This document shows, piece by piece, positions 89-23,095 of a DNA stretch of 25,296 bases (the first letter of the stretch is position 1; every line of letters starts with the position of its first letter). The stretch lies in IMG/VR virus record IMGVR_UViG_3300025151_000274, positions 1 through 25,296 of that record, one strand, 5' to 3'. The position numbers and the translations under genes are program-made. This DNA is from a virus. The notes beneath the pieces are model-generated. The model saw nothing but the letters and a program-made list of their open reading frames with translations. It was not told the DNA's origin and searched no databases.

Positions 89-463
89 ATGAACGAAATT
101 TTTAACACACTCAGGGATAAGTTTCCCTTTCTAAGCCTCATAAGAAAAGGCGATTTAGAGTATGTTGGCATCGTGCAGAACGAAGACACCAATGTGATCA
201 GTTTTTATGATTATGGTAGGCTGATGTTACCACAAGATAAGATGAAGTTTCTCAAGTGTGGGGAAATTTGGTGGCATGAGTCAAATCGTAAACTGCCGAT
301 CAATATATTCCTAAAAGGTGATTTCCGTTATTTCAGAACTGCTTTAGTAACATTAAATTCTAAAGATGTGGAGATAGTGCATGGACCAACTGTGAAACTG
401 TCTGATATTTCAAAGAAGCGAGTAAAACGTAGAACAATCCAATTAGTACGAAGACCTGTTTAA
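89..463 (+). CDS. Conserved-type hypothetical protein, 124 aa
   Basis: This 124-residue basic protein (C-terminal KKRVKRR cluster near residue 110) has no catalytic motif I recognise. The sequence looks like a compact globular domain with several aromatics (FYDYG near residue 40, IWWHESNR near 60). From memory, proteins with similar FYDYG and WWxESNR elements occur as hypotheticals in marine T4-like phages; no function is known to me. It stands alone on the plus strand, starts 9 bp from a minus-strand late promoter, and its TAA stop (461-463) shares the palindrome TTAA with the stop of the convergent 51-aa ORF. No convincing Shine-Dalgarno sequence precedes the ATG. Confidence 0.75.
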   Translation: MNEIFNTLRDKFPFLSLIRKGDLEYVGIVQNEDTNVISFYDYGRLMLPQDKMKFLKCGEIWWHESNRKLPINIFLKGDFRYFRTALVTLNSKDVEIVHGPTVKLSDISKKRVKRRTIQLVRRPV

Positions 464-615
464 TTTTCTTTCTTTTCAGGAAGTATGGCACCTGTTGTAA
501 GATAGTGTTGTGTTAACGGACTATCTGGCTGATAACCATATGGTTCCTTTTTAGAAGAAGTGGATTTTTTAATACGTTTTTTTCTTGAAGTTTTTTTATT
601 TCTTTGATGGTGCAT
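460..615 (-). CDS. Small Lys-rich protein, 51 aa
   Basis: An ATG at 615 opens a 52-codon frame that ends at TAA 460-462. The N-terminal half is very basic (NKKTSRKKRIKK), the C-terminal half is a polar, Pro/Tyr-containing segment (EPYGYQPDSP). It overlaps the end of the DnaE-like gene by 20 bp, the same packing style as the neighbouring genes, and its stop overlaps the stop of the convergent plus-strand gene. It fills what would otherwise be the only gap of more than 100 bp in this operon. An alternative is that it is reached by a +1 frameshift from the DnaE-like gene as a basic C-terminal extension, because the two frames overlap in an A-rich stretch. Function unknown. Confidence 0.55.
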   Translation of the reverse strand: MHHQRNKKTSRKKRIKKSTSSKKEPYGYQPDSPLTQHYLTTGAILPEKKEN

Positions 616-1186
616 CAAAACTATATTTAGCTCTACTCATCAAATTCATCTGAACAACAATTGCCTGAGCATACGCAACAGCGTGTGATTTCTTAAAGAA
701 GTAACTGCCATCTGTTGGTCTTGTCCATACTTCTTTCATTATATCAGTCCAGTCCTTGTACATCAGTCCTCTTTTAGCAGGACGTATTATGGCCAACACA
801 GCCGCAAGTTGTTCTATAGTTCGTGGTTCTAGTTTGGACACTATGTTGAAATGACCATTTAGATGAAAAAGGTTTTCAACTACTTTTGGATCTTTTAACA
901 TATCCCAATCAGGTTCCTGGATCATCAGTTCCACAAGTTCTTGTTCTGATTTAACATCCTTGTAGATGTTTACATTAAGACAATCTATTTTGAAGTAACC
1001 CCTGTCCTCCGCCTGTTTGTAATCTAAACTTGCGTGTCCAGTCACAGGATGTTCAGGCACAGCATGGAAGTATACTCCTGTCTTGTGCTTCTCACTCTTG
1101 CCGTCTTTGATCATGGAAGCAGGTGTGTGTTTGAAAAGTTTTAATGTGTTATCTCTATCAAAGAAATCTATGTCTACGTCAGGCAT
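596..1186 (-). CDS. Miniature DnaE-like (DNA polymerase III alpha) protein, 196 aa
   Basis: The protein begins with PDVDIDF at residues 2-8, matching the PDxDxDF palm motif of bacterial DnaE that carries two catalytic aspartates. Residues 63-71 (GYFKIDCLN) match the DnaE segment around the third catalytic Asp (GLVKFDFLG), here Asp68. IIRPAKRGLM (133-142) resembles the DnaE (L/Y)RPGPxxSGM element, and FFKKSHAVAYA (163-173) matches FNKSHAVAYG. So scattered DnaE landmarks appear in the right order in about 200 residues, against about 1100 in real DnaE; the PHP domain, most of the fingers, the beta-binding and OB domains are absent. The start overlaps the upstream stop as TAATG. Whether it polymerises, binds nucleotide, or acts as a decoy or regulator is not known. 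The DnaE relationship is strong by motif order; the function is inference. Confidence 0.8.
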   Translation of the reverse strand: MPDVDIDFFDRDNTLKLFKHTPASMIKDGKSEKHKTGVYFHAVPEHPVTGHASLDYKQAEDRGYFKIDCLNVNIYKDVKSEQELVELMIQEPDWDMLKDPKVVENLFHLNGHFNIVSKLEPRTIEQLAAVLAIIRPAKRGLMYKDWTDIMKEVWTRPTDGSYFFKKSHAVAYAQAIVVQMNLMSRAKYSFDAPSKK

Positions 1187-1419
1187 TAGTGTACACTCCC
1201 TTTGTCTTTCTCTGAGTGTTGTATCATCTTATCACGTGATCCTGGTTGCAACACCTCTAACACATCAAGAAGTTTTCTGTAACCTTCTGTTTTTATTATT
1301 TCTTTGTCAACTTTTGGCATTATAACTCTTCCTATTGATCCGTCCTCTTTGATTATCACTGCACAATCTCCTTCATCAAACTCTAAGTTATCTGAAACTT
1401 CTAAATCGATCTTAGACAA
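1186..1419 (-). CDS. Small acidic hypothetical protein, 77 aa, TTG start
   Basis: The reading frame starts at TTG (1419), and this unusual start is well supported by the strongest Shine-Dalgarno sequence seen in the window (AAAGGAGG, 1434-1427), six bases upstream. The product is acidic in its N-terminal half (NLEFDEGD) with a beta-rich look (CAVIIKEDGSIGRVIMP, residues 19-35) and a helical C-terminal half. It overlaps the upstream gene by 8 bp and the DnaE-like gene downstream as TAATG, so translation of the three is probably coupled. I do not recognise a family; a partner role for the DnaE-like protein is possible only by context. Confidence 0.75.
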   Translation of the reverse strand: MSKIDLEVSDNLEFDEGDCAVIIKEDGSIGRVIMPKVDKEIIKTEGYRKLLDVLEVLQPGSRDKMIQHSEKDKGSVH

Positions 1420-2095
1420 TCTTGGCCTCCTTTGCTGTGTCCTGCACCAACATATGATCGGCAGGATAGCTCTTCAGTTTAGATGGCCAGAAACTTGGGT
1501 TGATAAATCTTTCTATCATTTGTAATTGTTCGTCGTTAAATGATTTTAACATCCTTTTGCCTGCGTTGCAACCTAACAACAGCCATGGACTTATCTTACC
1601 TTGCTGAATGTGTTGAACGGCTCTATTTGTGTTGACCAATCTAAAGTAATCACTCCATTGTGCATTTTGTTCTGTGGCCCAGTCCATCATTGTTGCAATA
1701 CTTCTTTGCAGTGCCGCCTCAACAGGTTCAGTCTTGACTGCCTCTATAAGATATGTTTCATACAAATCATCTCTTGCCCAATGATCTAGTTTTATTTTTG
1801 ATCTTAGGACAAAGTCAATGTATTTGTCTGGGTACAAAGGATCGATATGCATGATGTATCTACCAAACTTAACAAAAGCATTGTAGTATGCACTTTTCAC
1901 AAAGTCGTCATATGTCTTAGGTTTACTGTTGTGTTGATGTATCTGATAGAATCGCTGAAACACCATGAATGCGTTTACTACCCATTTTTCGTCACGTTGT
2001 AAGTAACGTCTTTTAGGTTCGCACAAATGAACTTGTAGTGTTCTTGCTTTTGCAAATTCTTTGCCACAGTATGTGCATTTATTTGTTGATGCCAT
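1412..2095 (-). CDS. Zinc-finger-containing hypothetical protein, 227 aa
   Basis: The N terminus holds a C2HC-type finger: Cys7-x2-Cys10, followed by His23 and Cys25 (CTYCGKEF, then LQVHLCEP). The rest (residues 35-220) is predicted mostly alpha-helical by eye, with many aromatics and no catalytic motif that I recognise. It overlaps the upstream gene by 17 bp and the downstream one by 8 bp, within the uvsW operon. The finger and the replication/recombination context suggest nucleic-acid binding, but this is inference. I believe similar proteins are annotated as hypothetical in marine T4-like phages. Confidence 0.75.
   Translation of the reverse strand: MASTNKCTYCGKEFAKARTLQVHLCEPKRRYLQRDEKWVVNAFMVFQRFYQIHQHNSKPKTYDDFVKSAYYNAFVKFGRYIMHIDPLYPDKYIDFVLRSKIKLDHWARDDLYETYLIEAVKTEPVEAALQRSIATMMDWATEQNAQWSDYFRLVNTNRAVQHIQQGKISPWLLLGCNAGKRMLKSFNDEQLQMIERFINPSFWPSKLKSYPADHMLVQDTAKEAKIV
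1427..1434 (-). promoter_or_regulatory. Perfect Shine-Dalgarno deciding a TTG start
   Basis: On the minus strand the sequence AAAGGAGG ends six bases before TTG at 1419. It lies inside the 3' end of the upstream gene. Most genes in this window have weak or no Shine-Dalgarno sequence, so this one stands out and supports the TTG start. Confidence 0.65.
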
Positions 2096-2754: not shown

Positions 2755-3241
2755 AGTCTACCTGTTCGCATTGACGAGATATGTCCTTAACAAAGTAAGC
2801 ACACACAGGATTACGTCCGTCGGTCAAAGGCACCGCCAGCATTTGTCCTGTTTTAATTTTAGGAAAGTACCATTTTACTTCTGTGTAGATGTCTACAACA
2901 TCTATAGGTAAAAAGTCAGGCTTAGGACTAGACAATGGATTGAACGTGAATGCGTCAAATCCTCTGTCGTTTAAACTTGTGATCGGTAGTACATGCATCT
3001 CGGATTGTCCTGCTTCTCCTATCAGCATCTTCCAATCCAACGGCATTTTAATTTTATGATTGCCAATCTCCAACACCGCCGCTGGTGAATTAAAACTCTC
3101 TAAGAATATTAAGGGTATGTAAAAGAAGTCAGGATTGGCAGGATCTGAATTATCCAAGACCGCAAATCGCAGTTTCTCATCAACCCATTCCGGAATTTTT
3201 TCCAGGGTGTATGTTTTATCATCAAGTGTAAGGATTTTCAT
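2738..3241 (-). CDS. Conserved-type hypothetical protein after uvsW, 167 aa
   Basis: This 167-residue protein overlaps the 3' end of uvsW by 20 bp. Its C-terminal half holds the distinctive run LPITSLNDRGFDAF (residues 85-98), VKWYFPKIKTGQMLAVPL (122-139) and CAYFVKDISRQCE (147-159). From memory these segments recur in hypothetical proteins of large T4-type phages, but I know of no assigned function. It appears to be a soluble mixed alpha/beta protein without signal peptide or membrane segment. Its coupling to uvsW suggests a role in recombination or replication. Confidence 0.75.
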   Translation of the reverse strand: MKILTLDDKTYTLEKIPEWVDEKLRFAVLDNSDPANPDFFYIPLIFLESFNSPAAVLEIGNHKIKMPLDWKMLIGEAGQSEMHVLPITSLNDRGFDAFTFNPLSSPKPDFLPIDVVDIYTEVKWYFPKIKTGQMLAVPLTDGRNPVCAYFVKDISRQCEQVDYGSVW

Positions 3242-4685
3242 AATTTATCTTTTCTATATTATACGGATAATTTGCCTCTTTGTAAAACTTTTTCCTTGCA
3301 CCTAAATGTCTTTTTGCAAATTTGCAACTGCTGGTAATGTCCCATATTTGTACACTGTCTTTGTCTTCTGCTTTTCGTATTCCACGTCCGATACTTTGGA
3401 TTACCCTTACAAAAGACTTTCCAGGCTCTATAAGGACAAGATTAAAAATCCTAGGAATATTAATGCCAACAGCGGCAACTCCATATGTGGCAATAATAAC
3501 TTTATTCGTTGCAGTAGATATTTCATCGTATTGTTCCTTTCTATCCATGTTTTTTGTTGACCCTGAAACAAAGACTGAGTCCTTAATCTTCTTTTCTAAA
3601 AGTTCTCCTGCGGAGATCCTGTCTACTAGTATCAGGGTGTTTCCTGAAGTCGCAATGTCTTTTATCGTATTTGCTATCCAGGACATTCTTGTAGTGTCTG
3701 TAGTCAGCCACTTTAGTTCTTCCGCATAGGTCTTGAACTGTGGATGATCCTGTGTCTGCAGAACATTTACATGACAGTTTGCTAGTACACCTTTGTCTTG
3801 TAGTTCGCTTGCCTGTATCCTGTTTGCCACTTCACCTATGCTACATTTCAATCCCATGAATTCATAATCTGCTTTTGGTACAGTGCCCGTCAGCCCCCAT
3901 CTTATTCCGCAGTGTGCGAATGGGCCAGTCAATAATCGCTTCAAGACATCTGCTTTGGCCATGTGTACTTCATCTATAATGATAGTGTTTATTCCCTCAC
4001 AAAATTCTTTGAACTCTGTGCTGTGTTCGTTTTTTGCTTTCTTTTCAAGCACGTTCAAACTTTGCCATGTTGCTATTGTGTTATACCTTCCTACTTCTTT
4101 ACGGTCACCGTAGTACACGCCTGTGTCTAAGTTACAAGCAAGAAAGTCTTCTTCCGTTTGTGTCACAAGGCTCTTATTTGGCACAATGGTCATGGTCCTT
4201 CCGTATGGCTCAACCAGTTGGCAAAGTGCCGCAGTGATAATTGTCTTTCCTGCTCCTGTGGCTATCTCCTGTATGCTTTGCGGGTTCTCGATAAATTTAT
4301 TGATTGTCTCAACTTGATAATCTCTTAGTTCAATTGGCTGTCCTGCACACGGATGATTGCTTGGCCATTTGATGTGCGACATGTAATTTTTATCCACCGC
4401 TTTGAATTCATAATCGTGTTTTTCTCTTTGATCTTCGACGTCTATGTAAACTCCTCCCTCGTCTAGTATTGGTATGATTTGGTCAACGAGGTTAAGATAC
4501 GTAGTACCACCTAAGCCAAAGAAACTGACCTTACCGTCCCATCTTCCTAACTTTACCGCCGGGAGATGTCTTGCGTAAGGTATTTCGTATTTGAATTTAT
4601 TGGATAATCTTTTCCTCCATTCGAGAGATAGGTTCTCAAATTTTACATTCACTTCATCTTTTATTACTAATTTACAACTGCTCAT
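3222..4685 (-). CDS. uvsW: UvsW-type superfamily 2 DNA helicase, 487 aa
   Basis: In T4, UvsW is a 3'-5' SF2 helicase that unwinds R-loops and branch-migrates recombination intermediates, moving replication from origin-dependent to recombination-dependent initiation. This protein (487 aa; T4 503 aa) has an N-terminal UvsW-type domain (about 1-110), a Q-motif region (ELRDYQ, 119-124), Walker A GAGKT (144-148), the DEVH box (238-241), motif III LTGT (265-268), and C-terminal RecA-like motifs ending in QSIGRGIRKA (motif VI). It starts 1 bp after the 452-aa gene and its 3' end overlaps the 167-aa gene by 20 bp. Full length with all main motifs present. Confidence 0.93.
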   Translation of the reverse strand: MSSCKLVIKDEVNVKFENLSLEWRKRLSNKFKYEIPYARHLPAVKLGRWDGKVSFFGLGGTTYLNLVDQIIPILDEGGVYIDVEDQREKHDYEFKAVDKNYMSHIKWPSNHPCAGQPIELRDYQVETINKFIENPQSIQEIATGAGKTIITAALCQLVEPYGRTMTIVPNKSLVTQTEEDFLACNLDTGVYYGDRKEVGRYNTIATWQSLNVLEKKAKNEHSTEFKEFCEGINTIIIDEVHMAKADVLKRLLTGPFAHCGIRWGLTGTVPKADYEFMGLKCSIGEVANRIQASELQDKGVLANCHVNVLQTQDHPQFKTYAEELKWLTTDTTRMSWIANTIKDIATSGNTLILVDRISAGELLEKKIKDSVFVSGSTKNMDRKEQYDEISTATNKVIIATYGVAAVGINIPRIFNLVLIEPGKSFVRVIQSIGRGIRKAEDKDSVQIWDITSSCKFAKRHLGARKKFYKEANYPYNIEKINYENPYT

Positions 4686-4686
4686 T

Positions 4687-6045
4687 TTAAAGTTTTACTA
4701 CAATATGATCGTGCCAATCCCAACTGCTTGGTCTATGATCATTATAATACAACTTTTTTGGAAGATTTTCAAGAAGTCTTTTTAGATTGTCAGTGCCTGT
4801 GGCATAATAACCACCTCCAAGGGCAACCAGCGATGCTTTTGGTTTTATTTTACTTTTTATAAGAGCCCTTGGTATTCTGTTTCTAACAAATATGATTTTG
4901 GTATTTTCAGATATTAATTTAAACTGTTTACTCATTTGATGTAACTCATATAAATTTTCAAAGAACTCGTGTGACTTTTGGTTATCTAGAAGATATGTTC
5001 TGTCGCTGTGATGACGATCAATATCTTTTTTGAAGATAGGTTCCTTTACATCAAACCCCCAAGAGCAATCTTTTAAAATATCTATACCATGTAATTTAAA
5101 AGCGTTCATCCATTCCCAGAATTCTTTAACATCTGCCTCCATGTGTATATCTCCACTTACTGGTATGATGAGTGGAAAACAATCAAGTTCTTTCAACCCT
5201 CTCACAACATCGTTCTTGCTGTACGCTTTTGAATCTATCCATAATTTGTGATAATGATTGTGTGCAATCTTCCTTCCAATTTCTGTTTCTGCTGGCACAT
5301 TAAGACCGTTAGTCGGAATACTAAAATTTTTTAAACTATCTATCTGTTTGATTAATTTCAAAGGTTTGATGTATTTTTCCCAATACTCTTGTAACGACTC
5401 TGGAGCATTTTGCAATACAATTTCTCCTCCTATCATTGTGGCTGTTGGCTGTTTGTGTGTAATGATATTTTGTTTAATTAATTCATAATCATCTAACAAG
5501 GATTCGTCGACAAATTTAAAATCATACCTTACGGCAATCAAAGTTAGATAATAAGCAGTAACATCTGTGTGTAAGAAAGTCCACTTCTTGGCCTCACCGT
5601 CATATTGACTGTATCCTGCTGGCATATCTCTTTTGTCTTTTAAACATCTTATCAACTGAATTACTTTTTTGTTGTATGGGAAACGCATTTCTATCCTATC
5701 AACATTATCCTCTCCTGTGTATTTTTCTATGCTTTTGTCAAAACTGATTACCCTGAATTCGTCCTCGTATACTGGATTGTCTAGCAATCCTTTGATGTCC
5801 ATGCCATATGCTTGAAACTTTGTAAGGTACCTTTTTAAAATTACCAATGCTAATCTGGCCTGCTTCTCAGTCCACGGATACTGTGACTCTGCCAGTGACT
5901 TCACGGTTTCATGATCTTTTGGGTGCGGCTTAATTACGCCTGTATTTCCTATCATTGACGGATTTGCCCAAAAATAATCATTATATGCTAGTATTTTAAG
6001 GGCTTCGTTAACTGTTTTTGGCAAATCTGTGTGCATATTGTCCAT
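4687..6045 (-). CDS. Unknown protein with HARP-like segment, 452 aa, upstream of uvsW
   Basis: First gene of the operon that includes uvsW, behind a good sigma70-type promoter. Residues about 120-175 (MRFPYNKK, then AKKWTFLHTD, then YYLTLIAVRYDFKFVD) have the pattern of HARP-like domains, which in SMARCAL1-type annealing helicases bind DNA: hydrophobic-K-x-x-L followed by a KKW-F strand. The remaining 275 residues contain alternating alpha/beta segments (IIFVRNRIPRALI near 397, SLVALGGGYYATG near 417) but I see no Walker A or DExH box, so if it derives from a helicase the motor is lost. A working pair with UvsW is plausible from the 1-bp spacing. The HARP assignment is a by-eye inference. Confidence 0.7.
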   Translation of the reverse strand: MDNMHTDLPKTVNEALKILAYNDYFWANPSMIGNTGVIKPHPKDHETVKSLAESQYPWTEKQARLALVILKRYLTKFQAYGMDIKGLLDNPVYEDEFRVISFDKSIEKYTGEDNVDRIEMRFPYNKKVIQLIRCLKDKRDMPAGYSQYDGEAKKWTFLHTDVTAYYLTLIAVRYDFKFVDESLLDDYELIKQNIITHKQPTATMIGGEIVLQNAPESLQEYWEKYIKPLKLIKQIDSLKNFSIPTNGLNVPAETEIGRKIAHNHYHKLWIDSKAYSKNDVVRGLKELDCFPLIIPVSGDIHMEADVKEFWEWMNAFKLHGIDILKDCSWGFDVKEPIFKKDIDRHHSDRTYLLDNQKSHEFFENLYELHQMSKQFKLISENTKIIFVRNRIPRALIKSKIKPKASLVALGGGYYATGTDNLKRLLENLPKKLYYNDHRPSSWDWHDHIVVKL

Positions 6046-6099: not shown

Positions 6100-6576
6100 A
6101 TGAAAAAAACAAAAAATAAAAAGGTAAATGTAAGGAAACAACTTAAAATTAAGTTAGAAAATACTCTTACCAGACACAAGAATAAAATTGGTTATAAGCC
6201 AACATCAGATCAGGCATATCAGTGGTTCAGGGTAATAAACAGAGGCTTGTTCAATGGCAGATTACCGATGGTTGAAATACAAGTCAAGAAATTGCACAAG
6301 GACTGGGGTAGATGTGTTGCCAATTGGGACAATAGAAAAACTCCTAAAGGAAAGTTCGACCAGAGGGTTATTCCTTATCATATCGATGTTGAATACTATA
6401 TTGAATTACATTGTAAGTTTCCAACATGGAAAGATTTTATTGAAACTTTAGCACACGAAATGGTACATCTGTATCAAATGGCTTGGATAAAAGATCCATA
6501 CGCTAACCACAATTCAAATTTCTATGCTTGGAAAAATAAATTTAAATTGGCTGGCCTCGGCCTATCAAGGTGTTAA
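6100..6576 (+). CDS. SprT-like zinc metallopeptidase, 158 aa
   Basis: SprT-family proteins (eukaryotic SPRTN/Spartan, bacterial SprT) are HExxH metalloproteases; SPRTN cuts DNA-protein crosslinks at forks. Here HEMVH is at residues 119-123, with the likely third ligand His137 in a NHNSNFYAW segment that matches the family H-x3-F-x2-W pattern. The first 35 residues are strongly basic, which would suit DNA binding. The typical C-terminal zinc-binding finger is absent, as is usual for phage versions. It is a lone plus-strand gene, divergent from the uvsW operon and overlapping the next convergent gene by 12 bp. A role in clearing proteins from phage DNA is inference. Confidence 0.8.
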   Translation: MKKTKNKKVNVRKQLKIKLENTLTRHKNKIGYKPTSDQAYQWFRVINRGLFNGRLPMVEIQVKKLHKDWGRCVANWDNRKTPKGKFDQRVIPYHIDVEYYIELHCKFPTWKDFIETLAHEMVHLYQMAWIKDPYANHNSNFYAWKNKFKLAGLGLSRC

Positions 6577-7290
6577 TACCTTTTCAAATTCAGCGTAACT
6601 AATAACTTTGCTATTGCCGTAATCGTGACCTGTCTGTAGGTAGTTCAATCCTTCGGGCGGATTGTCATGTACAACAATGTAGTTGACGTAAGGCCGCATT
6701 TTTATCATGTCACGCAACTGTTTGAGCCAACCATCGAACACAGTATCGCCGTCCCTTGGTCCATAATTTTCTGTGTCCTGGTATATGTTGTTGAGTTGAT
6801 CCTTACCGTATTCCCTGAAGTCGTATCCAATGAGATATATGTTTTTGTGTCCATGCACCCCTGCTGTCCAAAATGCCTGGTTGCCTGATATCCAGTGCGG
6901 ATTATTTGGTATGAGATGTAACATACCTTTGGAGTATCTTCTGTTTACTTCTAGTGATGGAGCATAGTGTATAGTTTTCCTTCCCACTTCGTCCTTGATC
7001 ATTTGTGCGGTCATTTTCGTATCTACACTAAAAATGAAATCTGGCCAGAAGTCTCTGTATAATGCATTACAACCATAAGTTTGCCCTGTCTCTTTCAATC
7101 TATTTAGATCAAAGCCTTTACGTGAAGGTCCGTTTCCTATGCAGTATGCATTGCCTCGAGGCACACACTTTACCTTGTCTTCGTAAAATGCAGTCTCTTG
7201 AATCTTCTGTCCTTTACGGATAATGGTGTTGACAACGACAGTTTCGCCTTCGTATTTTTCCCACGGTATTTCTTTTATTGGTGTCTGCAT
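6565..7290 (-). CDS. MptE/DUF115-like protein (GNGPS motif), possible sugar transferase, 241 aa
   Basis: The motif CIGNGPSRK (residues 50-58), followed by YGCNALYRDF and DFIFSVDTKM, is the signature of the DUF115/MptE-like fold shared with sialyltransferase-like enzymes such as the GT42 family, which bind a nucleotide at the GNGPS loop. Later SGNQAFWTAG (near 134) and YLIGYDFREYG (near 151) fit the same fold. In phages and surface-glycan clusters such proteins are generally taken to be glycosyltransferases; the substrate cannot be read here. It overlaps the upstream oxygenase gene as TAATG and the SprT gene tail-to-tail by 12 bp, so it is the last gene of the 13075-6565 block. Confidence 0.65.
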   Translation of the reverse strand: MQTPIKEIPWEKYEGETVVVNTIIRKGQKIQETAFYEDKVKCVPRGNAYCIGNGPSRKGFDLNRLKETGQTYGCNALYRDFWPDFIFSVDTKMTAQMIKDEVGRKTIHYAPSLEVNRRYSKGMLHLIPNNPHWISGNQAFWTAGVHGHKNIYLIGYDFREYGKDQLNNIYQDTENYGPRDGDTVFDGWLKQLRDMIKMRPYVNYIVVHDNPPEGLNYLQTGHDYGNSKVISYAEFEKVLTP

Positions 7291-7781
7291 TAAAAATAGT
7301 TTAAGTTGAACACTATCCTGTACGGAGCGTCACATGAATTGGTTGTTCCGCTGTGTTTTGTTTTTGCATCAAAGATTACTAGAGTATTTTCTTTGCTAGT
7401 TATTTTTTCTCCTGTCTCAAATTTTGTGTAACCATTATTGGTATTCAGATATAAAATTGCTGTTTTAAGGTTGCTAGGAGGGTTTGGAATGTCTATGTGA
7501 GCATCGTGTTCAATGACTTCAGTTGCTCTTGGAAGCAGATTTACTTTGGCTCTTACTAAGGAAACTATACCTAGTTTTTCTTTGAATATATCAAGGCCAC
7601 CCAATGTGAATGTGCTTTTGAATTCGTCGTCCCTATAGATGGTATGGGTAAATTGAATGTGTCCGTCTTGTGGATAACTGACTCCATGATTCAGTGCCCA
7701 GGCAAAACTAGGATCAAGCAGAATATCTTTGAGATCCTTTAGATCACTCTGTGCTAAGAAATTTTCTTTTACTTCAATCAT
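7290..7781 (-). CDS. 2OG-Fe(II) oxygenase, 163 aa
   Basis: A small double-stranded beta-helix oxygenase of the 2-oxoglutarate/Fe(II) superfamily. The iron ligands can be read as His95-x-Asp97 (HDAHIDIP) and distal His143 (KTKHSGTTN), with Arg155 (PYRIVFNLNYF) as the 2-oxoglutarate anchor. Length is at the short end for the family. Such enzymes are frequent in T4-like marine phages, where substrates (protein, nucleobase or sugar) are mostly unknown. Its position between glycan genes, with ATGA and TAATG overlaps on either side, suggests it hydroxylates a sugar or a glycosylated protein; this is inference. Confidence 0.78.
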   Translation of the reverse strand: MIEVKENFLAQSDLKDLKDILLDPSFAWALNHGVSYPQDGHIQFTHTIYRDDEFKSTFTLGGLDIFKEKLGIVSLVRAKVNLLPRATEVIEHDAHIDIPNPPSNLKTAILYLNTNNGYTKFETGEKITSKENTLVIFDAKTKHSGTTNSCDAPYRIVFNLNYF

Positions 7782-8650
7782 AGATATTTTTCTTTCAACC
7801 TATTTTTAATTCTTTCCCATGGTAGTCCTTCTTCAATTTCGCTTGTCCACCATTCAGTGTATGCTAACTTATTTGCCCAATTTTGTCTATCTGGCATCTC
7901 CGGATTGTTTATGTTTTGGTAGTTTTTATTACCAACATCGTAACTGAGACTGGCCTCTGAAACATAAACAGGTATACCGGCAATGGCGGCAGTCATCGCA
8001 GGATTGCTTGAGTGGTTCACAACCGCCCATGCAGACTTCAATCTATCTGCAAGATCTGTATCATCATATGTGCTACGATCTCTTTGCGGTCCTACCATTC
8101 TCACATTTTGATACTTACGCACGTCGATGCTGACATTGTTCCTTGGGTGCGGCCTTATAACGATAGGCCTATCAGTGTACTTTCGTATCTCTGTCACTTG
8201 CTGATCAAACCATTTGGACATCGGAGGATTGTTTCTCCATTGGTGACTGCTATGGTGCTGTCCACAGATAATAATATCGTTGCCTGTTTGGTTCCATGGC
8301 TTTAGTTCTAATTTAAATTTTTTCCAACGGGCACCGTCTACTTGTTCGTTTGCGAAATCTGCCTCACGATTGATTCCATTGATGCCAATTTTCCAAGTTT
8401 CGTTACGTTTTATTCCACCTACTTCGACCACTATAACTGGTTTGTTTTTTTGCTGATATGTGTTCCATATGTTTTTATATTTGGCCATCCTGCCTTGCCA
8501 TAACACTGACCATATCACTGACACATCACATTGCCCGTCATCGTTGTTGACAAGTACTGTATCGCCAGAACGTTTCATACTATTCAACAATGCAGTAAAG
8601 ACGGGCTTCGAATTCAAAGGCCCGTAATCTGTGAAACAACTTATTTTCAT
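7778..8650 (-). CDS. GT-B-like/capsule-synthesis-type protein, paralog 1 of 4, 290 aa
   Basis: I place the start at ATG 8650, which overlaps the upstream stop as ATGA; an in-frame ATG at 8674 would give eight more residues. The C-terminal half has RPIVIRPHPR (about 167-176), AWAVVNHSS (about 208) and AAIAGIPVYV (about 221), then a tail with NNPEMPDRQNW and LAYTEWW. RPHPR followed by a Ser-rich loop and a GIPV strand is typical of the nucleotide-sugar side of GT-B-like capsule-synthesis proteins (KpsC/KpsS-like). The tail signature is shared with three other proteins in this window. The donor and acceptor are unknown. Confidence 0.65.
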   Translation of the reverse strand: MKISCFTDYGPLNSKPVFTALLNSMKRSGDTVLVNNDDGQCDVSVIWSVLWQGRMAKYKNIWNTYQQKNKPVIVVEVGGIKRNETWKIGINGINREADFANEQVDGARWKKFKLELKPWNQTGNDIIICGQHHSSHQWRNNPPMSKWFDQQVTEIRKYTDRPIVIRPHPRNNVSIDVRKYQNVRMVGPQRDRSTYDDTDLADRLKSAWAVVNHSSNPAMTAAIAGIPVYVSEASLSYDVGNKNYQNINNPEMPDRQNWANKLAYTEWWTSEIEEGLPWERIKNRLKEKYL

Positions 8651-9549
8651 GTCGTGGGTGGTGCTTTTTTCCAATAATCAACAGAGAAAACATCTACAGG
8701 AGCATTAGGATTAGCACGAAGATCATTACGTCCACTAGTACCGGTCTTCTTACGTTTACCCTTCATGTGATCCATGTACAGTCCCAATTCACTGTTTACA
8801 AACACATGGTGTCCTTTGACACCAATCCAATATCCAATATCGTTTACTTCTATATTTTTTTGCTCTCTGTACTTCTTTGTTAGATGCCAAAATACGTAAC
8901 TGTCGTGCCACTCCAGTAATTTGAAAACCTCATCTGTGACGTATAGTTGTTCCCATTCATTAACAAAGTTTTGTATTTCAGGATGGTTCATATTGTAACC
9001 AACAAATCCACATTCTGGATATTTGCCACCATCATTTAATTTTGGATTTTCTCTACCAAGGTAGGTAACCATAGTGTTGCTTGGCAATAATTTTTTGAAA
9101 AAGTCAAAAGGTATTGGTCTAAAACTGAATGTATCTGCGTCGATCCAAACGACATAATCATACTCTTGTGAATTCCTGACTCCGTTGACTACGCAGAAAA
9201 CTTTGTTGGCAAAACGTACCGCCGCCCAGAGATATGATCCTTTGTTTTTATCTTTACCGCCCTTTGTCTGTAGAGCGGCAGGCCTTCTTACCCCACCAGG
9301 AATCTCAGTTAGTTCTCCGTTTGCAACAGGGTCATTTTGATGTTTATTCTTAAATTTAAACAGTTCGGGTTCTGCTGAGTTAAGATCTATCCATGTTATT
9401 CGATCAAAGTTGCACTGAGGTTTAGGCTCTTCTGCATACACGACTATATCTATTTCCTTGGGAAATTGCTGTGCCATCGACTCTATTCCTTTTTTGGCGT
9501 ATGCGTCCCAAGTGCCTGGTTTGTATGATGTTATTACTTTAATTTTCAT
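8647..9549 (-). CDS. GT-A-type glycosyltransferase, 300 aa
   Basis: The N terminus (MKIKVITSYK) begins a Rossmann-like strand, and VVWIDADTFSF near residues 133-143 carries the metal-binding DxD (Asp137, Asp139) of GT-A enzymes. RPAALQTKGGK and SYLWAAVRFANK precede it, similar to GT8/capsule-type nucleotide-sugar transferases; VGYNMNHPE and WHDSYVFWHL follow. Substrate unknown. It lies 4 bp after asnB and overlaps the next gene as ATGA, so it belongs to the same translational unit. Confidence 0.72.
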   Translation of the reverse strand: MKIKVITSYKPGTWDAYAKKGIESMAQQFPKEIDIVVYAEEPKPQCNFDRITWIDLNSAEPELFKFKNKHQNDPVANGELTEIPGGVRRPAALQTKGGKDKNKGSYLWAAVRFANKVFCVVNGVRNSQEYDYVVWIDADTFSFRPIPFDFFKKLLPSNTMVTYLGRENPKLNDGGKYPECGFVGYNMNHPEIQNFVNEWEQLYVTDEVFKLLEWHDSYVFWHLTKKYREQKNIEVNDIGYWIGVKGHHVFVNSELGLYMDHMKGKRKKTGTSGRNDLRANPNAPVDVFSVDYWKKAPPTT

Positions 9550-9553
9550 TCTG

Positions 9554-11290
9554 CTAATATTTACTTGTGAAATTCATGTTGAATTTATTTGCCCATTCTC
9601 TCATTATCCATGCTGGTATCGCCGCTTTTGTGGTCTCGTTACTTCTGACAACCACATTTTTTAAACAATCATCTTGATTTATTTGTTTTTGGTAATAGTC
9701 TTTTGCGACATTTTCATCCTGTATCCAACCTTTAATAGGTGCAGTCCAACCAGTTTTGTGTTTGTTTACAATAGTATCAGGGAATATTTTAGCATAGGCT
9801 TTTTTACTTAGAAGTTTTGTATCTGATTTGTTCCTTCCAATCTTTTGGTTAGATGGAATACTCAAACCGTACTTCATGAATTTTTTAGTTGCTAGAGGAA
9901 AACGCCCCTCCATACTAAAGGCCATGCCGTAGGTATCGTTACGTATAAAAAATTCTTCCGGAACCTGTGTTACGCAATCCAGTGCCATGTAAGAATTAAC
10001 AGGGTCGTCTGAGTTGTACAGTTCGCTAGGTAAATTATTCACTAGATAGTTTGTTAATTCATTTCTGTCAATTGGGTAATTCGAAACAGCAATAGGACGC
10101 TTGATTCTGTTCATCCATGCCGCGACTAGTTCCTCCCAAGACTTTACGGATTTATTTCTTAGTTTCCAGTATTTTGGATATCCGCCCAGTACCTCGTCTC
10201 CCATGTCTCCGGCCAATGTTACAACAATGCCATCTTCAGACAGCACCTTATTTGTGTAATAATACATCACCATTGAAGGATTGTATACAGGTTGTTCCAT
10301 GTAATAGATACTGTCTTGCCAAAACTGCTTCAGCAGTTGCGGAGTCATCGTTACTATTTTGTGATTGAAATTAAACTGGTTTGCAAGTTCAAGAGCCTTG
10401 TTATGGTCGTCATTATGATCGTCTTCTCTCCATATTATGTTTGGCTCCATTTTGTTTGTGTAGGTGTTTGTTTCTTTGTGCAGTTGACTGTGTTCATATG
10501 CTATCATTCCACTGTCTAGTCCACCACTTAAAAATATACCTATCTTTCTTCTCCCAATGCTACACATCTTTACACTGTCTCTGGTTACGGCACGAAACTC
10601 TTCTGGGTCGAACTTACTGTTGTTTGTTGGTATTATTAGATTTCTTTTTTTATGTTTGATACGTTTGTTTGCGAGGTCATATATGATTGTTTCTCCGCTC
10701 AATAATTTTTTAATATTTGAAAAAAATGTGTTTTCGGTAACGTTGACTCCAACGTGTGCCATACAACTAAATGCCAACGGATCTATGTTCCTGCTACCTT
10801 GCACGTGATCTAACATTCCTTTGATTTCACTGCCAAATATTAATCCTTGTTTAATTTCAGCATAGTACAAAGGTTTGATCCCAGCATGGTCTCTACTAAT
10901 CCATAGTTCATTTGAATTTACTTTGTAGTACGCAAAGGCGTGCATAGAATCAATCTCGTCTAAGAAATCCAGACCGTATGTGTCCAAACCCCAGGCTAAC
11001 AATTCTGTATCACAACCTGTGATGCCAGCAAAGTCTGAATATTTTTCTTTTAATTCATAATAGTTGAATATTTCGCCGTTGTAGATCAACCAATTACCTG
11101 CGGGCGTTTTCCATGGTTGTACTGATAATTTTGGATCACTCATTATACTCAGTAGATTATGTCCCAATGTGAGTTTGTGATTTGGATCCCACCATACCTT
11201 CTCACCATCTGGTCCTCTGTGACTACAAGTGCGGATGTAGTTTTGTATTAGTGTTGGGTCGTGATCAGTGATGCCGTATATACCACACAT
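9554..11290 (-). CDS. asnB: Asparagine synthetase B-type amidotransferase, 578 aa
   Basis: Class II glutamine amidotransferase fused to an ATP-pyrophosphatase synthetase domain: aspartate (or an acid on another molecule) plus ATP and an amide nitrogen gives asparagine. The start must be ATG 11290, because Cys2 of MCGIYG is the N-terminal nucleophile; this ATG overlaps the upstream stop as TAATG. NGEI (71-74) and TGCD (91-94) of the glutaminase site, the PP-loop SGGLDS (255-260), GDMGDEVLGGYPKYW and EGRFP are present. The Arg that binds the glutamine carboxylate (HxRLSI in usual AsnB, Arg49 in E. coli) is replaced: the segment reads HNLLSI, with Leu46. Length fits the family (E. coli 554). In surface-glycan clusters AsnB-like enzymes can amidate sugar acids, so the substrate need not be aspartate. 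Confidence 0.9.
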   Translation of the reverse strand: MCGIYGITDHDPTLIQNYIRTCSHRGPDGEKVWWDPNHKLTLGHNLLSIMSDPKLSVQPWKTPAGNWLIYNGEIFNYYELKEKYSDFAGITGCDTELLAWGLDTYGLDFLDEIDSMHAFAYYKVNSNELWISRDHAGIKPLYYAEIKQGLIFGSEIKGMLDHVQGSRNIDPLAFSCMAHVGVNVTENTFFSNIKKLLSGETIIYDLANKRIKHKKRNLIIPTNNSKFDPEEFRAVTRDSVKMCSIGRRKIGIFLSGGLDSGMIAYEHSQLHKETNTYTNKMEPNIIWREDDHNDDHNKALELANQFNFNHKIVTMTPQLLKQFWQDSIYYMEQPVYNPSMVMYYYTNKVLSEDGIVVTLAGDMGDEVLGGYPKYWKLRNKSVKSWEELVAAWMNRIKRPIAVSNYPIDRNELTNYLVNNLPSELYNSDDPVNSYMALDCVTQVPEEFFIRNDTYGMAFSMEGRFPLATKKFMKYGLSIPSNQKIGRNKSDTKLLSKKAYAKIFPDTIVNKHKTGWTAPIKGWIQDENVAKDYYQKQINQDDCLKNVVVRSNETTKAAIPAWIMREWANKFNMNFTSKY

Positions 11291-12273
11291 TATAATCCCA
11301 ACTTCTGTTTGAAACGTTGAAACACTGTCCCGTCTTTGATTTCTTGTTCTGTCCATTGCTTATATCCAAGATCATGCAACCACTGAGTTCTATCGGGGTA
11401 TTCGGGTGTTTCAATATTATTTAGATTATGATTTGCTACTGGCCAACAAAGTGCAAGATCTGAGGTAACAAAGGTAGGGATTCCACGAACGCAAGAGTCG
11501 ATACTGGCAGTAGAATTGTGAGTAACAACAGCATGTACATTAGTTATTGCTTCTTGGAAGTTGAATCTGTAATACTTTTTCTCATCTCCAACCCAATGGG
11601 CCTTGCCCTCGAGTAATTCACAGTCTTCTGGAAATTCATTTTTCCTGTTAATCATTTGCGCCATGTGATTAGGATGCGGTCTAATCAGAAACTTACGTTC
11701 GGTTATAGGCCTTAACTTTTCATACACTCCCATAAACCAATCTATAGGATCCAATTCATTCATGCTCCAGTTGTCTTTTGGTTGTAGAACAAAAAGTATT
11801 GGGTCGTCCTGGTTGGATTTCCTCCATGGTTCGTGTTTAACATTCCATAAAGACTTCATCATATCCCATCTATCACTAGGACTGTTATCACTTAAAAAGT
11901 CTCCATTGTTCATTGGTGAATATAAACTTACACGCCAATGGTGTTTAGGATGTGTAATGGTGTTACCAAAACTTGATAATATTCCTCCATCAAATGTAAT
12001 AATGTATATGCCTTTTTTCTTTGCACGTTCGACTAAATCTCTTCTTCTTCCTTTTGTGTGGTGCATTTGATTTGAACCGCCATAACCAAACATACAGCCT
12101 ACTTTAGCGGTAGGTTCCATTTCGTTTGAAGTCCACTCGCCGGTCTTGTGTTCATTGACCATTACAGGATTGTCTCCACATGCACGAATGCCTTCTGCCA
12201 TATGTTGCAACAGTTCGTAACTTGCACCTCGCCTACGATCCTTGACAGTTCTTCTAAAAATTTCAACGTCCAT
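11290..12273 (-). CDS. GT-B-like/capsule-synthesis-type protein, paralog 2 of 4, 327 aa
   Basis: Largest member of the paralog family. KFLIRPHPN (about 194-202), AVVTHNSTASIDSCVRGIPTFV (around 249-270) and the tail ETPEYPDRTQW, LGYKQWTEQEI, match paralog 1 closely. The N-terminal half has its own GYGGSNQMHH and ITFDGGILSS segments, which in such proteins form the acceptor-side Rossmann domain. The start at 12273 overlaps the upstream paralog by 11 bp. Likely a nucleotide-sugar-dependent transferase; the function is inferred from fold-level motifs only. Confidence 0.62.
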   Translation of the reverse strand: MDVEIFRRTVKDRRRGASYELLQHMAEGIRACGDNPVMVNEHKTGEWTSNEMEPTAKVGCMFGYGGSNQMHHTKGRRRDLVERAKKKGIYIITFDGGILSSFGNTITHPKHHWRVSLYSPMNNGDFLSDNSPSDRWDMMKSLWNVKHEPWRKSNQDDPILFVLQPKDNWSMNELDPIDWFMGVYEKLRPITERKFLIRPHPNHMAQMINRKNEFPEDCELLEGKAHWVGDEKKYYRFNFQEAITNVHAVVTHNSTASIDSCVRGIPTFVTSDLALCWPVANHNLNNIETPEYPDRTQWLHDLGYKQWTEQEIKDGTVFQRFKQKLGL

Positions 12274-13075
12274 CTAGTATCCTTAATGCGTAGCCGTTCC
12301 GGAATTCCTCCTGTGTAAACTGACCGTAAGCAAGGCTATTAAATATGGGCTCTCTGTCAGCGTACATTGGAGTTTCTATTTTACTAAAATCTGATTCGCA
12401 AATCTGTCCACAAGGATTTTCAAAATTGCTGTAACATGGCACTCCGTTGTGTAATGCTTTTATTGTTATAGAACTGTTGAAAGTAACCACAGCATGTACT
12501 TGATCCCATTCAAAAGGTTTCTCTGGTTGTTTGTTTTCGCTAGGCCCTGGCAACATCCTACCTTGCTCATCTATATAACTTTTTGGATTGTAAGGTTTTT
12601 CTCTTACTATTATTTCTCTGTCTGTGTTTGCTTTTAATATTGCCAAGGTTGCATCTAACCAATCTGGGGCATTAAAATGTAGTGCCATGCTATGACTAGG
12701 CGGCACAACTAATATGTATTTTCCGTTTTTATGATATGGTCTTATTGGATCACCTTTGTAAAATTTTTTATACCTGTCGTCTGGAGTTTCCGCGTGTGTT
12801 GTCTTTACATGTTCATTTTTAACACATCTCATCCAATAGGGTGTGCCTCTACTTTCTCCCCAATAAGGTCGGTCTATGTAGTAAAAATCTTTTTTGTTTT
12901 GTTTTGCCCAGTTGTAGACTATGTTAGTCCCACGTAGCACTCCCATGAATGCAACCTTTGTGCAGTCTTCCTTCATGGCTTCTTGGTAACTTACTATTTG
13001 ACCTCCGGCCCCTCTAGCCATTGATTCTATGTATTTTTCGGTGTTGGCTCTTTCTGTTCGTACACAATAAAACAT
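12263..13075 (-). CDS. GT-B-like/capsule-synthesis-type protein, paralog 3 of 4, 270 aa
   Basis: First gene of the block 13075-6565. YYIDRPYWGES (about 85-95) and YWMRCVKNEHV (about 100) align with paralog 4 (FTDTPYFGRF, YWRLCKNAIHV), and HAVVTFNSSITIKALHNGVPCY with the shared GIPV segment; the tail IETPMYADREP, LAYGQFTQEEFRNG is the family signature. The RPHP of paralogs 1 and 2 is replaced by VREKP, as in paralog 4 (LRHKP), so 3 and 4 form a subgroup. It diverges from the plus-strand gene at 13094 across only 18 bp, in which I see no clear promoter. Confidence 0.62.
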   Translation of the reverse strand: MFYCVRTERANTEKYIESMARGAGGQIVSYQEAMKEDCTKVAFMGVLRGTNIVYNWAKQNKKDFYYIDRPYWGESRGTPYWMRCVKNEHVKTTHAETPDDRYKKFYKGDPIRPYHKNGKYILVVPPSHSMALHFNAPDWLDATLAILKANTDREIIVREKPYNPKSYIDEQGRMLPGPSENKQPEKPFEWDQVHAVVTFNSSITIKALHNGVPCYSNFENPCGQICESDFSKIETPMYADREPIFNSLAYGQFTQEEFRNGYALRILDGR

Positions 13076-13093
13076 AATCGTAAATAGTTATCG

Positions 13094-13849
13094 ATGAGAA
13101 ACTTGGTTATACAATATTATATAGACATTAGAAAGTATTCGCAACCGGAGTTCAATAATTTGAAACCAAGTCCAATGGAAGAATACAGCAGGCACAGTTT
13201 TAAACTCTACTGCAAGAGACACGACCTAGAATATTTAAGAATTACCGAACCAAAGTTAGGATTTAAACATCCAACATGGGAACGATTCGACTTATGGATG
13301 GATAGATCTTGGTGGGACAAGTACGATCAAATAATGTACGTAGACAGTGATGTGATTGCGTTACCACACGCACCAAATATATTTGCAGAATATCCATCAA
13401 TAGATACCAATCTAAAAACTTGTTACTATCCAAAATTCAGAGAGGCCTCACCAGCGGATGCAAAATTTAACCAACGGGTTAATCCTATAGCAGACAGATA
13501 CACAGGCGAAGTGATATCAAAAAGGTTCGTGCAACCTGGAGTAATGATTCTTAATAAACAAAACACGCAATTCATGTTGCCATGGATAGAAAAGTATAAA
13601 GATGTAACGGACGATAGGATTGACGATGGAATGTTCTTAAACTCCTGCATAGTTGACAGTGAAGTTCCATTGTTGGATATGAATAGGATGTACAACTTCA
13701 AAAATAATGGTGAAAGGTTTAACTACGATAGAGTTAATTTCTTACACTGTGCTGGAGGAAAGAAACACAAGAAAGGTGTTGCCATATGGCCTAAATTGAA
13801 AGGCATCTTTCCAGAAGTAATAGTTGACTTAGAACATTTGCCTGACTAA
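13094..13849 (+). CDS. GT-A-type glycosyltransferase (GT8-like), 251 aa
   Basis: QIMYVDSDVIAL (79-90) carries the DxD metal-binding motif (Asp84, Asp86) in the GT8-like context; the preceding HPTWERFDLWMDR and the later RFVQPGVMIL (a typical GT8 'N/G-GVM-hydrophobic' element) and FLHCAGGKKHKKG (terminal His/Gly-Lys element binding the diphosphate) agree with that. It is a single plus-strand gene between two minus-strand blocks: 18 bp from the divergent paralog 3 and overlapping the convergent GT61-like gene by 4 bp. No Shine-Dalgarno sequence is evident. Sugar donor unknown. Confidence 0.75.
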   Translation: MRNLVIQYYIDIRKYSQPEFNNLKPSPMEEYSRHSFKLYCKRHDLEYLRITEPKLGFKHPTWERFDLWMDRSWWDKYDQIMYVDSDVIALPHAPNIFAEYPSIDTNLKTCYYPKFREASPADAKFNQRVNPIADRYTGEVISKRFVQPGVMILNKQNTQFMLPWIEKYKDVTDDRIDDGMFLNSCIVDSEVPLLDMNRMYNFKNNGERFNYDRVNFLHCAGGKKHKKGVAIWPKLKGIFPEVIVDLEHLPD

Positions 13850-14928
13850 TCAAGCATTTCGATTAATTTAGTAATATCGATCTTAAGATCTACCATATCT
13901 TTTAATTTTTTATTTTTAGGTTTTTTGCCTGCTATCTTTACTGTATCGCAAAGTAAGACACTATGTTCTAGTTTAAGATGATGTGACAGTACCGGATAAA
14001 CTTTCTTGCCAAAAAATGCTTCATGTGTTAATTCTATCACTTTGGTTCCTGGTTCACACCATAACAAATTAGTGAGACCTGCACCGTGTGGTGAAACAAT
14101 ATGAGTTGCTTCAGCAAACAGTTGCACTTGTTCTTTGATATTGAGTGTTTCGAGATCTATTGTTTCCCATCCTTTTAGTGCCATTAACATTTGCTCTTTA
14201 TTTTTAATGTTTCTGTTAGATGCATTTTCTCTTGTGATGATGATTTTTCTATGAGGCTTTGTGTCTTTCTCTTTGACTAAATTGGAAAGATGTTTGATCC
14301 ACAATGGCATATGAGGAGTAAGTATTCCGTCATTGTAGTTGCTCATTGACGGCACTATCAAATGTTGAAAACGCCAGGTTTCATTTTTAGGCATCACGAG
14401 ATATCTTAAATCAGGAAAGAAAGTCTTGCAAACTTTGTCAAAATAATCACTCTTGTTAGCAAGTATGAATACATATTTTTCAAAATTAGTGCTCCAACGT
14501 TTTTCAATCAGTCTAAATTTAGATATGATGTCCATCCAAATATGCCATGGATTCTCAGAACTATACTCATCGATTGGTAACCATACGTACTTCCAACTAC
14601 CATTAAACTGTTGTGTGATAGGTGGCATGTTTATGTCTACTTGGTTGCCCCATTCCTTGAACATGTCATGGACTTTGTGAGGCCTGTCACGATATTTTGA
14701 AATAAGTGGCCATGCATGGTTAGTGATTAATTTCCTATCTTCGGTTACCAACACAGGCAAAGAATTGACGCTACAATTACTGAAGTCGGCTACGAAGGTT
14801 GGTAAACTGGTGTAAGTATTTTTAATGCCAAATTTATCCCACTGTATGCTGTAGTCGAAACTTTGGTCAACAATGTCCCATTGGCTGGTGAAATATTTGA
14901 TGTCCTGAATGTTTTGAACTGTTTGCAT
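13846..14928 (-). CDS. GT61-family-like glycosyltransferase, 360 aa
   Basis: The C-terminal part holds ATHIVSPHGAGLTNLLW (near residue 290), the hallmark of GT61 (DUF563) transferases, where HGAGLTN forms the nucleotide-sugar site, followed by EPGTKVIEL. The upstream KIIITRENASNRNIKN matches the family's R-x-x-x-x-R-x-hydrophobic-x-N region. GT61 members include xylosyl-, arabinosyl- and GlcNAc-transferases, so the donor cannot be told. It is transcribed alone on the minus strand, divergent from the SGNH gene through a palindromic AT box, and its stop overlaps that of the preceding plus-strand gene. Confidence 0.8.
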   Translation of the reverse strand: MQTVQNIQDIKYFTSQWDIVDQSFDYSIQWDKFGIKNTYTSLPTFVADFSNCSVNSLPVLVTEDRKLITNHAWPLISKYRDRPHKVHDMFKEWGNQVDINMPPITQQFNGSWKYVWLPIDEYSSENPWHIWMDIISKFRLIEKRWSTNFEKYVFILANKSDYFDKVCKTFFPDLRYLVMPKNETWRFQHLIVPSMSNYNDGILTPHMPLWIKHLSNLVKEKDTKPHRKIIITRENASNRNIKNKEQMLMALKGWETIDLETLNIKEQVQLFAEATHIVSPHGAGLTNLLWCEPGTKVIELTHEAFFGKKVYPVLSHHLKLEHSVLLCDTVKIAGKKPKNKKLKDMVDLKIDITKLIEMLD

Positions 14929-14945
14929 ATTACCTATAACTAGTG

Positions 14946-14955
14946 TATAATTATA
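14946..14955. promoter_or_regulatory. Palindromic TATAATTATA between divergent genes
   Basis: The 29-bp divergent gap contains the perfect palindrome TATAATTATA, so both strands carry a TATAAT -10 hexamer. For the plus strand TTGCAT (14923-14928) lies 17 bp upstream, a weak -35. The plus-strand start would then fall at or a few bases from ATG 14958, giving an almost leaderless message. For the minus strand no good -35 is seen. It could also be a variant late box (TATAATTA). Low certainty on the mechanism. Confidence 0.4.
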
Positions 14956-14957
14956 TC

Positions 14958-15650
14958 ATGACTGTGTCCAAATTGTTCCTAAATGGTTGTTCGTTTTTGA
15001 CTTTTCGTCCTAAGCAGGGTGTTGATACACATTGTGGCGTTGAACTGGCAAAGAAGATGGATTTGGAGATTGCTGTTAATCTTGCAGGTGGAGGCCGAGG
15101 TAACAAGAGGACAAGTTTCACAACAAAAGTATGGTGTGAAAAGTATCCAGACATTGCTGAAAAATGTTTTTTCCTGATAGGGTCTAGTTCAGGCACCAGG
15201 ATCGATTATCCAACGAGTGATGGGTACAAGAGGCACAAATTTCCAAGTATGGCCACCACGTGGAGAACTTACAGTCCAAACAAGGACCCTGAATGTAAGA
15301 CTTTTTGGAAGTACTTGATGCGTACTGGTGCGGACGTAGATCAGATGACGCAGATTGAATCAATTGATAACATTTTAAATTTACAATATTATTTTGAGAA
15401 GAAAAAATATCCATATCTGATTTACCATACAATCTCTGACGCAAAAATTAAAAATGAGGACATTAAATTGTTGTATAGCAAAATAAACAAAGATAGATTT
15501 TTTAGGCCAGACTCGAGCCATATAGATTATGTTTTAGAAAATAAACTTACTATCAGTAATGATGATCCTCATCCAAGCACACAAGGACACGAACAATGGG
15601 CAACGCTCTTAAAGGAATACATAGATGCTAACAATCTACGCACCATTTAG
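14958..15650 (+). CDS. SGNH/GDSL-like hydrolase, 230 aa
   Basis: Residues 9-13 (NGCSF) match block I of phage SGNH hydrolases, making Ser12 the nucleophile. Gly-rich AGGGRGNKR (43-51) fits block II, and DDPHPSTQGHEQWA (202-215) gives the catalytic Asp202-x-x-His205 of block V. Such enzymes remove acyl (often O-acetyl) groups from sugars or polysaccharide. I use ATG 14958; a GTG at 14943 would add five residues but lies upstream of the likely transcription start. It leads the plus-strand block 14958-20113 and overlaps the next gene by 26 bp. Confidence 0.75.
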   Translation: MTVSKLFLNGCSFLTFRPKQGVDTHCGVELAKKMDLEIAVNLAGGGRGNKRTSFTTKVWCEKYPDIAEKCFFLIGSSSGTRIDYPTSDGYKRHKFPSMATTWRTYSPNKDPECKTFWKYLMRTGADVDQMTQIESIDNILNLQYYFEKKKYPYLIYHTISDAKIKNEDIKLLYSKINKDRFFRPDSSHIDYVLENKLTISNDDPHPSTQGHEQWATLLKEYIDANNLRTI

Positions 15651-18388: not shown

Positions 18389-18392
18389 AATT

Positions 18393-22869: not shown

Positions 22870-23095
22870 CTTCGCCGTATCCGTCTGACTCTTCTTCGTC
22901 CTCGAACACAGTGTTAATTGCTTCTTCTAACTTAGGATCGTATTCGGCCGACGCTTTTATTTCGTCATGTTCAACACCAATGTCCTCTAAACTTTTAATA
23001 AAGTCGATGGCCGCATCAAGTTTAGATCTTTCCGGCACATAGTGAACTATAGAGTTCCATAGGCGTTCTATGTCTTCATGTGTAAAGTCTATCAT
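22862..23095 (-). CDS. Small acidic protein between uvsX and uvsY, 77 aa
   Basis: A 77-residue protein with a strongly acidic tail (EDEEESDGYGEDD) and a helical body (RSKLDAAIDFIKSLEDIGVEHDEIK). Its ATG overlaps the uvsX stop as TAATG and its end overlaps uvsY by 8 bp, so the three are translationally coupled. Function unknown; the acidic tail could mimic DNA or bind the basic surfaces of UvsX, UvsY or gp32. I believe marine T4-like phages have an equivalent small gene here. Confidence 0.75.
   Translation of the reverse strand: MIDFTHEDIERLWNSIVHYVPERSKLDAAIDFIKSLEDIGVEHDEIKASAEYDPKLEEAINTVFEDEEESDGYGEDD

Follow-up and report, generated by a model that had tools for sequence, protein, structure and literature searches.

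The viral record IMGVR_UViG_3300025151_000274 of IMG/VR, analysed here over positions 1 to 25,296 as a single stretch of DNA (the window), raises the question of why a T4-like phage, whose relatives carry a gp43-type DNA polymerase (PolB), should also encode a 196-residue protein with the motifs of DnaE, the alpha subunit of bacterial DNA polymerase III (Pol III). The protein is specified by an open reading frame (ORF) at 596-1186 on the minus strand, whose ATG start overlaps the stop codon of the gene upstream (TAATG). In all probability it constitutes the C-terminal half (C-half) of a minimal core of DNA polymerase III alpha whose two parts are specified by distinct genes. An earlier sequence-only reading had taken it for a self-sufficient miniature polymerase, a proposal that does not hold: the half bearing the GRGS segment (N-half) is encoded elsewhere and co-occurs with the C-half in essentially all cultured carriers.

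The window protein and its family

The gene and its motifs are located in the window as follows.

596-1186, minus strand: probable C-terminal half of a trans-split minimal DNA polymerase III alpha (phrog_11778), 196 residues; assigned by PHROG match, profile-profile match and AlphaFold/Foldseek
1166-1180, minus strand: DxDxD metal-binding motif, D3/D5/D7 corresponding to E. coli DnaE D401/D403/D405; assigned by invariance and DnaE alignment
983-991, minus strand: KxD motif, K66/D68 corresponding to E. coli K553/D555, with the third catalytic aspartate; assigned by invariance and hhalign
773-787, minus strand: IRPAK motif of the fingers, R135/P136 corresponding to E. coli R639/P640; R, P and K are invariant, and a weak Pfam DNA_pol3_finger match ends here
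668-697, minus strand: FKKSHAVAYA motif (E. coli GFNKSHSAAYA), with K165/H168 invariant; aligned to E. coli 753-767

The motifs PDVDIDF (residues 2-8), KIDCLN (66-71), IRPAKRGLM (134-142) and FFKKSHAVAYA (163-173) read as the sequence-only reading had stated, and they follow the order of DnaE, namely DxDxD, KxD, IRPxK and FKKSHxxxYA. The three catalytic aspartates of a family C polymerase core are present in PDxDxDF and KxD (D3, D5 and D68, equivalent to D401, D403 and D555) and are strictly conserved. The homology to DnaE, first recognized from these motifs, was borne out by the PHROGs search, in which the protein matched phrog_11778, annotated as 'DNA polymerase', with an E-value of 2.8e-66. 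The motif reading did better here than a plain Pfam search, which returned only a trace of DNA_pol3_finger below the cut-off (E 0.05). Profiles were needed for detection: a single-sequence phmmer search of PDB chains with the window protein gave no match and no DnaE. Megablast of the window against cultured phages gave no match either. In profile-profile comparison with hhalign, the C-half aligned to DnaE 509-643 (E 1e-5) with D68 placed on D555, so that profile searching points to Pol III alpha and not to an unrelated family.

Relatives of the C-half comprise 90 cultured-phage records and 456 IMG/VR loci. The cultured carriers are mostly jumbo phages of the RaK2/121Q, PA5oct/Paride, Atu_ph07, XacN1 and SCTP-2 kinds, and the family spans phages of E. 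coli, Pseudomonas, Rhizobiales and marine hosts. In an alignment of 83 sequences, the invariant residues are D3, D5, D7, H34, G37, K66, D68, R135, P136, K138, K165 and H168; both DxDxD and [KR]xD are kept in 234/234 C-halves. The median pairwise ratio of nonsynonymous to synonymous substitution rates (dN/dS) between the window C-half and its relatives is 0.043 (103 pairs). Judged from these sequences, the C-half is strongly constrained, above all at the positions equivalent to the metal ligands of Pol III.

The partner gene and the split point

The GRGS nucleotide-binding segment of DnaE is absent from the window protein. Seven cultured- or jumbo-type phage genomes carrying the C-half were searched for other pieces of Pol III, and each of them (7/7) contained exactly one match to PF07733 above the cut-off, located in a short ORF at another locus (approximately 170-180 residues in most) and covering profile positions of about 16-98. 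PolB was present in 7/7 of these genomes, and the PHP domain (PF02811) was found in 0/7. The partner ORFs, which represent the N-half, correspond to phrog_11127 (approximately 175 residues; 171 profile positions, with the match running to the profile end). They contain the G-x-G-R-G-S segment (GxGRGSS), which is invariant, and most end at or near '..EFL[KNR]'.

The boundary between the two genes is sharply defined, as more than 80 N-half loci, mostly on viral contigs, stop at one shared profile position. The N-half aligns to E. coli DnaE 321-392 in a profile search and to DnaE 297-396 in profile-profile comparison (E 4.4e-9); its end corresponds to E. coli residue 392-393, and the C-half starts about seven residues later at PDxDxDF (400-406). 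The two separate genes meet just before PDxDxDF. A joined N+C profile forms one unbroken block on E. coli DnaE 320-420 across the junction, followed by 606-641 and 753-767, and the scores against E. coli DnaE amount to 51.3 bits for N+C, 37.8 for C+N, 29.7 for N alone and 12.8 for C alone. The earlier remark that over 80% of DnaE is gone is accurate for the window protein alone (196/1160 residues) but overlooks this second gene, which encodes the preceding part of the palm. Separately, phrog_7513 (461 positions) and phrog_13169 (463 positions), two longer phage families, are matched by the N-half at their C-terminal ends, and these sequence matches suggest that a similar split point may delimit longer N-terminal halves in other phages.

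Single-chain AlphaFold models of the two halves reached predicted local distance difference test (pLDDT) scores of 91.0 and 91.3. In the C-half model, residues 4-8 (DxDxD) and 67-71 (KxD) are each predicted to form a strand, and every one of the top 14 Foldseek matches in the PDB was either a Pol III alpha chain or an entry with DNA polymerase as its description (best E 1.1e-3, probability 1.00). All of the top 11 matches of the N-half were Pol III alpha. For either half, confident PDB matches were confined to Pol III alpha chains, which corresponds to a Pol III-type palm fold and, as far as strands and fold matches go, agrees with the structural expectation of the sequence-only reading.

The two halves also co-occur. 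Among phage records (n=50,697), 90 contain the C-half and 88 the N-half, with nearly identical organism tallies. By these tallies and among the matches listed, the records with the C-half only are a 109-kb Klebsiella fragment and two Alishewanella phages; in the 141-kb Alishewanella phage Slicko01, the N-half was recovered by the Pfam profile. Large metagenomic contigs give a more mixed picture (9/20 N-half contigs also show the C-half) because such contigs are fragments.

In the window's own clade, a true N-half was found in 0/20 of the large C-half contigs of close kin first searched, and an N-half cluster with 130 loci was found after that search. Metagenome samples in common with the window's C-half cluster amounted to 24/60 for the listed loci of this N-half cluster, versus 6/76 for the general N-half set. 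The possibility that the clade is devoid of the N-half was rejected on the basis of G080, a contig of 196,581 bases syntenic with the window, which carries the following genes.

4571-5149 of G080: C-half, 82% identical to that of the window
187287-187805 of G080: N-half
152793-155462 of G080: PolB
181592-182536 of G080: gp44

This contig keeps the gene order of the window around UvsX, a 452-residue protein, UvsW and phrog_11279/11058. Since G080 has both halves, the window phage most likely encodes its N-half beyond the 25-kb fragment. Both genes and PolB are thus found in one genome in the seven phage genomes and in this contig of the window's clade; the presence of PolB agrees with the gp43-type polymerase that the sequence-only reading had assumed for such a phage.

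A proposed composite active site and its alternatives

In Pol III, as in pol-beta-fold enzymes generally, the GxGRGSS segment holds the incoming nucleotide. In the proposed enzyme, the N-half (phrog_11127) would supply the first part of the palm including this nucleotide-holding segment, and the window protein would supply the three metal-binding aspartates, the active-site lysine and shortened fingers. The two chains most likely associate, and we infer that the active site would be complete only in the heterodimer, yielding a small nucleotidyltransferase. Because both halves are located among replication genes, a role in the replisome is the best guess: the predicted pair probably acts in the T4-type replication or recombination machinery beside PolB (gp43), where its tasks could include short gap-filling or primer extension. 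Comparison of sequences and models shows the homology, the split point, the conserved catalytic residues, the co-occurrence, the synteny and the purifying selection, whereas dimerisation, catalysis and the replisome role are inferred. A more far-reaching proposition, which we advance tentatively and with somewhat less than even confidence, is that the T4-type replisome includes, as a second polymerase, an active enzyme of the bacterial replicative family of approximately 370 residues, whose active site is split over two subunits from different operons and whose assembly might serve as a switch.

Several observations weigh against a two-gene enzyme of this kind. Owing to the small size of the halves, Foldseek gave only modest E-values (about 1e-3), and the models are of single chains, so that the interface between the N-half and C-half is a putative one. 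Neither the fingers helix bearing RRAxxKK (E. coli 709-715) nor any part of the thumb can be recognised, and DNA synthesis may therefore be weak or need other subunits. One half only was found, using broad profiles, in the linear contigs G025 (359 kb, N-half), G011 (280 kb, C-half) and G012 (222 kb, C-half), which may be either fragments or real exceptions. Moreover, the N-half is not within the 25-kb window, which shows the C-half only.

The alternative that survives best holds that the halves form a Pol III-like palm that does not polymerise DNA, and that they instead transfer nucleotides to some other substrate or serve the replisome in a structural or regulatory capacity. It would account for the loss of the thumb, clamp-binding and tau-binding regions and the strong shortening of the fingers, as well as for the presence of PolB in every carrier genome examined, by which DNA synthesis is already covered. 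We nevertheless regard it as unlikely, since the aspartate triad, the active-site lysine and GxGRGS are invariant across very diverged phages, a pattern hard to explain without catalysis on nucleoside triphosphates.

Far less probable is a mimic or inhibitor of host DnaE, acting by a block of host Pol III or by competition for the clamp, as the sequence-only reading had also envisaged. The homology to DnaE speaks for it and phages often target host replication, yet a decoy need not keep catalytic residues, and those of the C-half are invariant; with the metal ligands strictly conserved and a partner that completes the active site, an enzyme is favoured over a decoy. The protein is, in addition, very distant from host DnaE (no PDB match with phmmer, and E 1e-5 only in profile-profile comparison), the clamp-binding region is absent, and one family serves phages of E. 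coli and Pseudomonas as well as those of Rhizobiales and marine hosts. The idea that a formerly intact phage DnaE gene is in decay, to which the occurrence of DnaE fragments only, spread over two genes, might point, can be given virtually no weight in view of a median dN/dS of 0.04, intact ORFs in hundreds of contigs, and a split point and gene order that are identical and conserved, respectively, over distant phages.

Genomic setting, related enzymes and significance

The genes surrounding the C-half in the window are listed below.

1186-1419, minus strand: small upstream gene, 77 residues, overlapping the C-half start by TAATG, with a homologue in the same place in G080; from the ORF list and sequence
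1412-2095, minus strand: phrog_11058 protein, 227 residues, conserved neighbour; from Pfam/PHROG searches and G080 synteny
3222-4685, minus strand: UvsW-type helicase, conserved upstream neighbour; phrog_16, E 3.9e-75, same order in 121Q, Paride and G080
89-463, plus strand: phrog_11637 protein, convergent gene downstream of the C-half; PHROG match
23095-24150, minus strand: UvsX recombinase; its closest cultured relatives are from phages carrying the split polymerase

A small gene occupies the place just upstream of the C-half in several carrier genomes, and a small convergent gene is located downstream of it in all carrier genomes examined. In the cultured carriers, the order is a run of small genes (after uvsW in several), the C-half, the small convergent gene, primase and a gp41-type helicase; the N-half is located approximately 1-4 kb upstream of the clamp loader gene gp44. 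The phrog_11058 protein (1412-2095), conserved upstream of the C-half, starts with a C2H2-like zinc-finger sequence (CTYCGKEF...H). Between the uvsX region and uvsW, positions 6565-22424 of the window contain glycosyltransferase-, FkbM-methyltransferase-, asparagine-synthase- and sugar-epimerase-like ORFs. Judged from the ORF translations, this run looks like a variable cargo island; in cultured carriers, 121Q among them, few extra genes occupy this position.

Some marine relatives encode, in addition, a contiguous DnaE without PHP domain. In the window's clade, at least 16 marine contigs have it behind gp41 and a gene for endonuclease III, approximately 5.5 kb downstream of the C-half; 13 other contigs with enough sequence after gp41 showed no contiguous DnaE. 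This enzyme (563-576 residues) matches PF07733 (E 8e-43) and the finger domain, and three examples are given here.

L266:1462-3150: contiguous PHP-less DnaE (approximately 563 residues)
L264:97-1785: contiguous PHP-less DnaE (approximately 563 residues)
L263:1552-3240: contiguous PHP-less DnaE (approximately 563 residues)

The ORFs of 563-576 residues had come up in the marine contigs through weak matches to the N-half profile, and they were rejected as partner of the C-half on being recognized as this separate enzyme. When 50 N-half contigs were searched for the contiguous DnaE, three of them gave weak matches, each about 80 residues long and apparently the N-half itself, and the others gave none; the enzyme is also absent from the seven cultured-type genomes and was not found in G080, a contig that breaks off shortly after gp41 at its left end. 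On these results, the contiguous DnaE is best regarded as accessory, and the C-half as having its partner elsewhere. In the LR756508 megaphage, the contiguous enzyme occurs alone. Directly downstream of the contiguous DnaE in one phage contig (G002, 60-80 kb), the region L279:4209-8809 contains a substrate-binding protein, two permease-like ORFs and two ATPase ORFs, which resemble an ATP-binding cassette transporter of the branched-chain amino acid or urea type.

The split minimal Pol III alpha has already been described in 'group 2.2' jumbo phages (Iyer et al. 2021, PMC7824862), where it was proposed that the two proteins reconstitute a catalytic enzyme and may cooperate with PolB; its two parts are, as here, phrog_11127 and phrog_11778. 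Our literature search found no biochemical test of the split enzyme since that proposal. Individual pieces had been noted elsewhere: earlier genome papers recorded CBB_328 as a 'truncated' Pol III alpha of 172 residues (PMC5259590) and, in Atu_ph07, a 'Pol III alpha' (PMC6102473), and a study of 2022 (Weinheimer and Aylward, PMC9123017) reported a marine jumbo-phage cluster of which about half carries PF07733, a match that may be the N-half. The split enzyme is thus known, and what is new here is an abundant marine clade together with the contiguous PHP-less DnaE in some of its members. Whereas the 2021 study covered jumbo phages, the C-half is found here in hundreds of marine contigs from a T4-like clade (approximately 200 kb or more) and in the 141-kb phage Slicko01, and part of the marine clade has the extra contiguous enzyme.

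The split pair shares with E. coli DnaE the motif order, the aspartate triad (D401, D403 and D555), K553, the RGS segment and the RP and KSH motifs. It differs in size and organization: E. coli DnaE is one chain of 1160 residues, whereas the pair comprises approximately 370 residues in two chains, in which the PHP, thumb, tandem helix-hairpin-helix/beta-binding, OB and tau-binding regions were not recognised and for which length and alignment leave no room. The contiguous phage DnaE (approximately 563 residues) is likewise of family C and lacks PHP, but it is one chain with uninterrupted palm and fingers and a C-terminal extension.

If active, the pair would mark the minimum with which a member of the bacterial replicative polymerase family can work, its replicative-type active site being assembled from two chains with separate genes and placed, as a bacterial-type polymerase, within an otherwise PolB-based T4-like replisome; at approximately 370 residues it would rank among the smallest Pol III-type enzymes known. 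Hundreds of natural sequences of the two halves are contributed by the marine clade, and the cultured phages 121Q and Paride/PA5oct make the idea directly testable.
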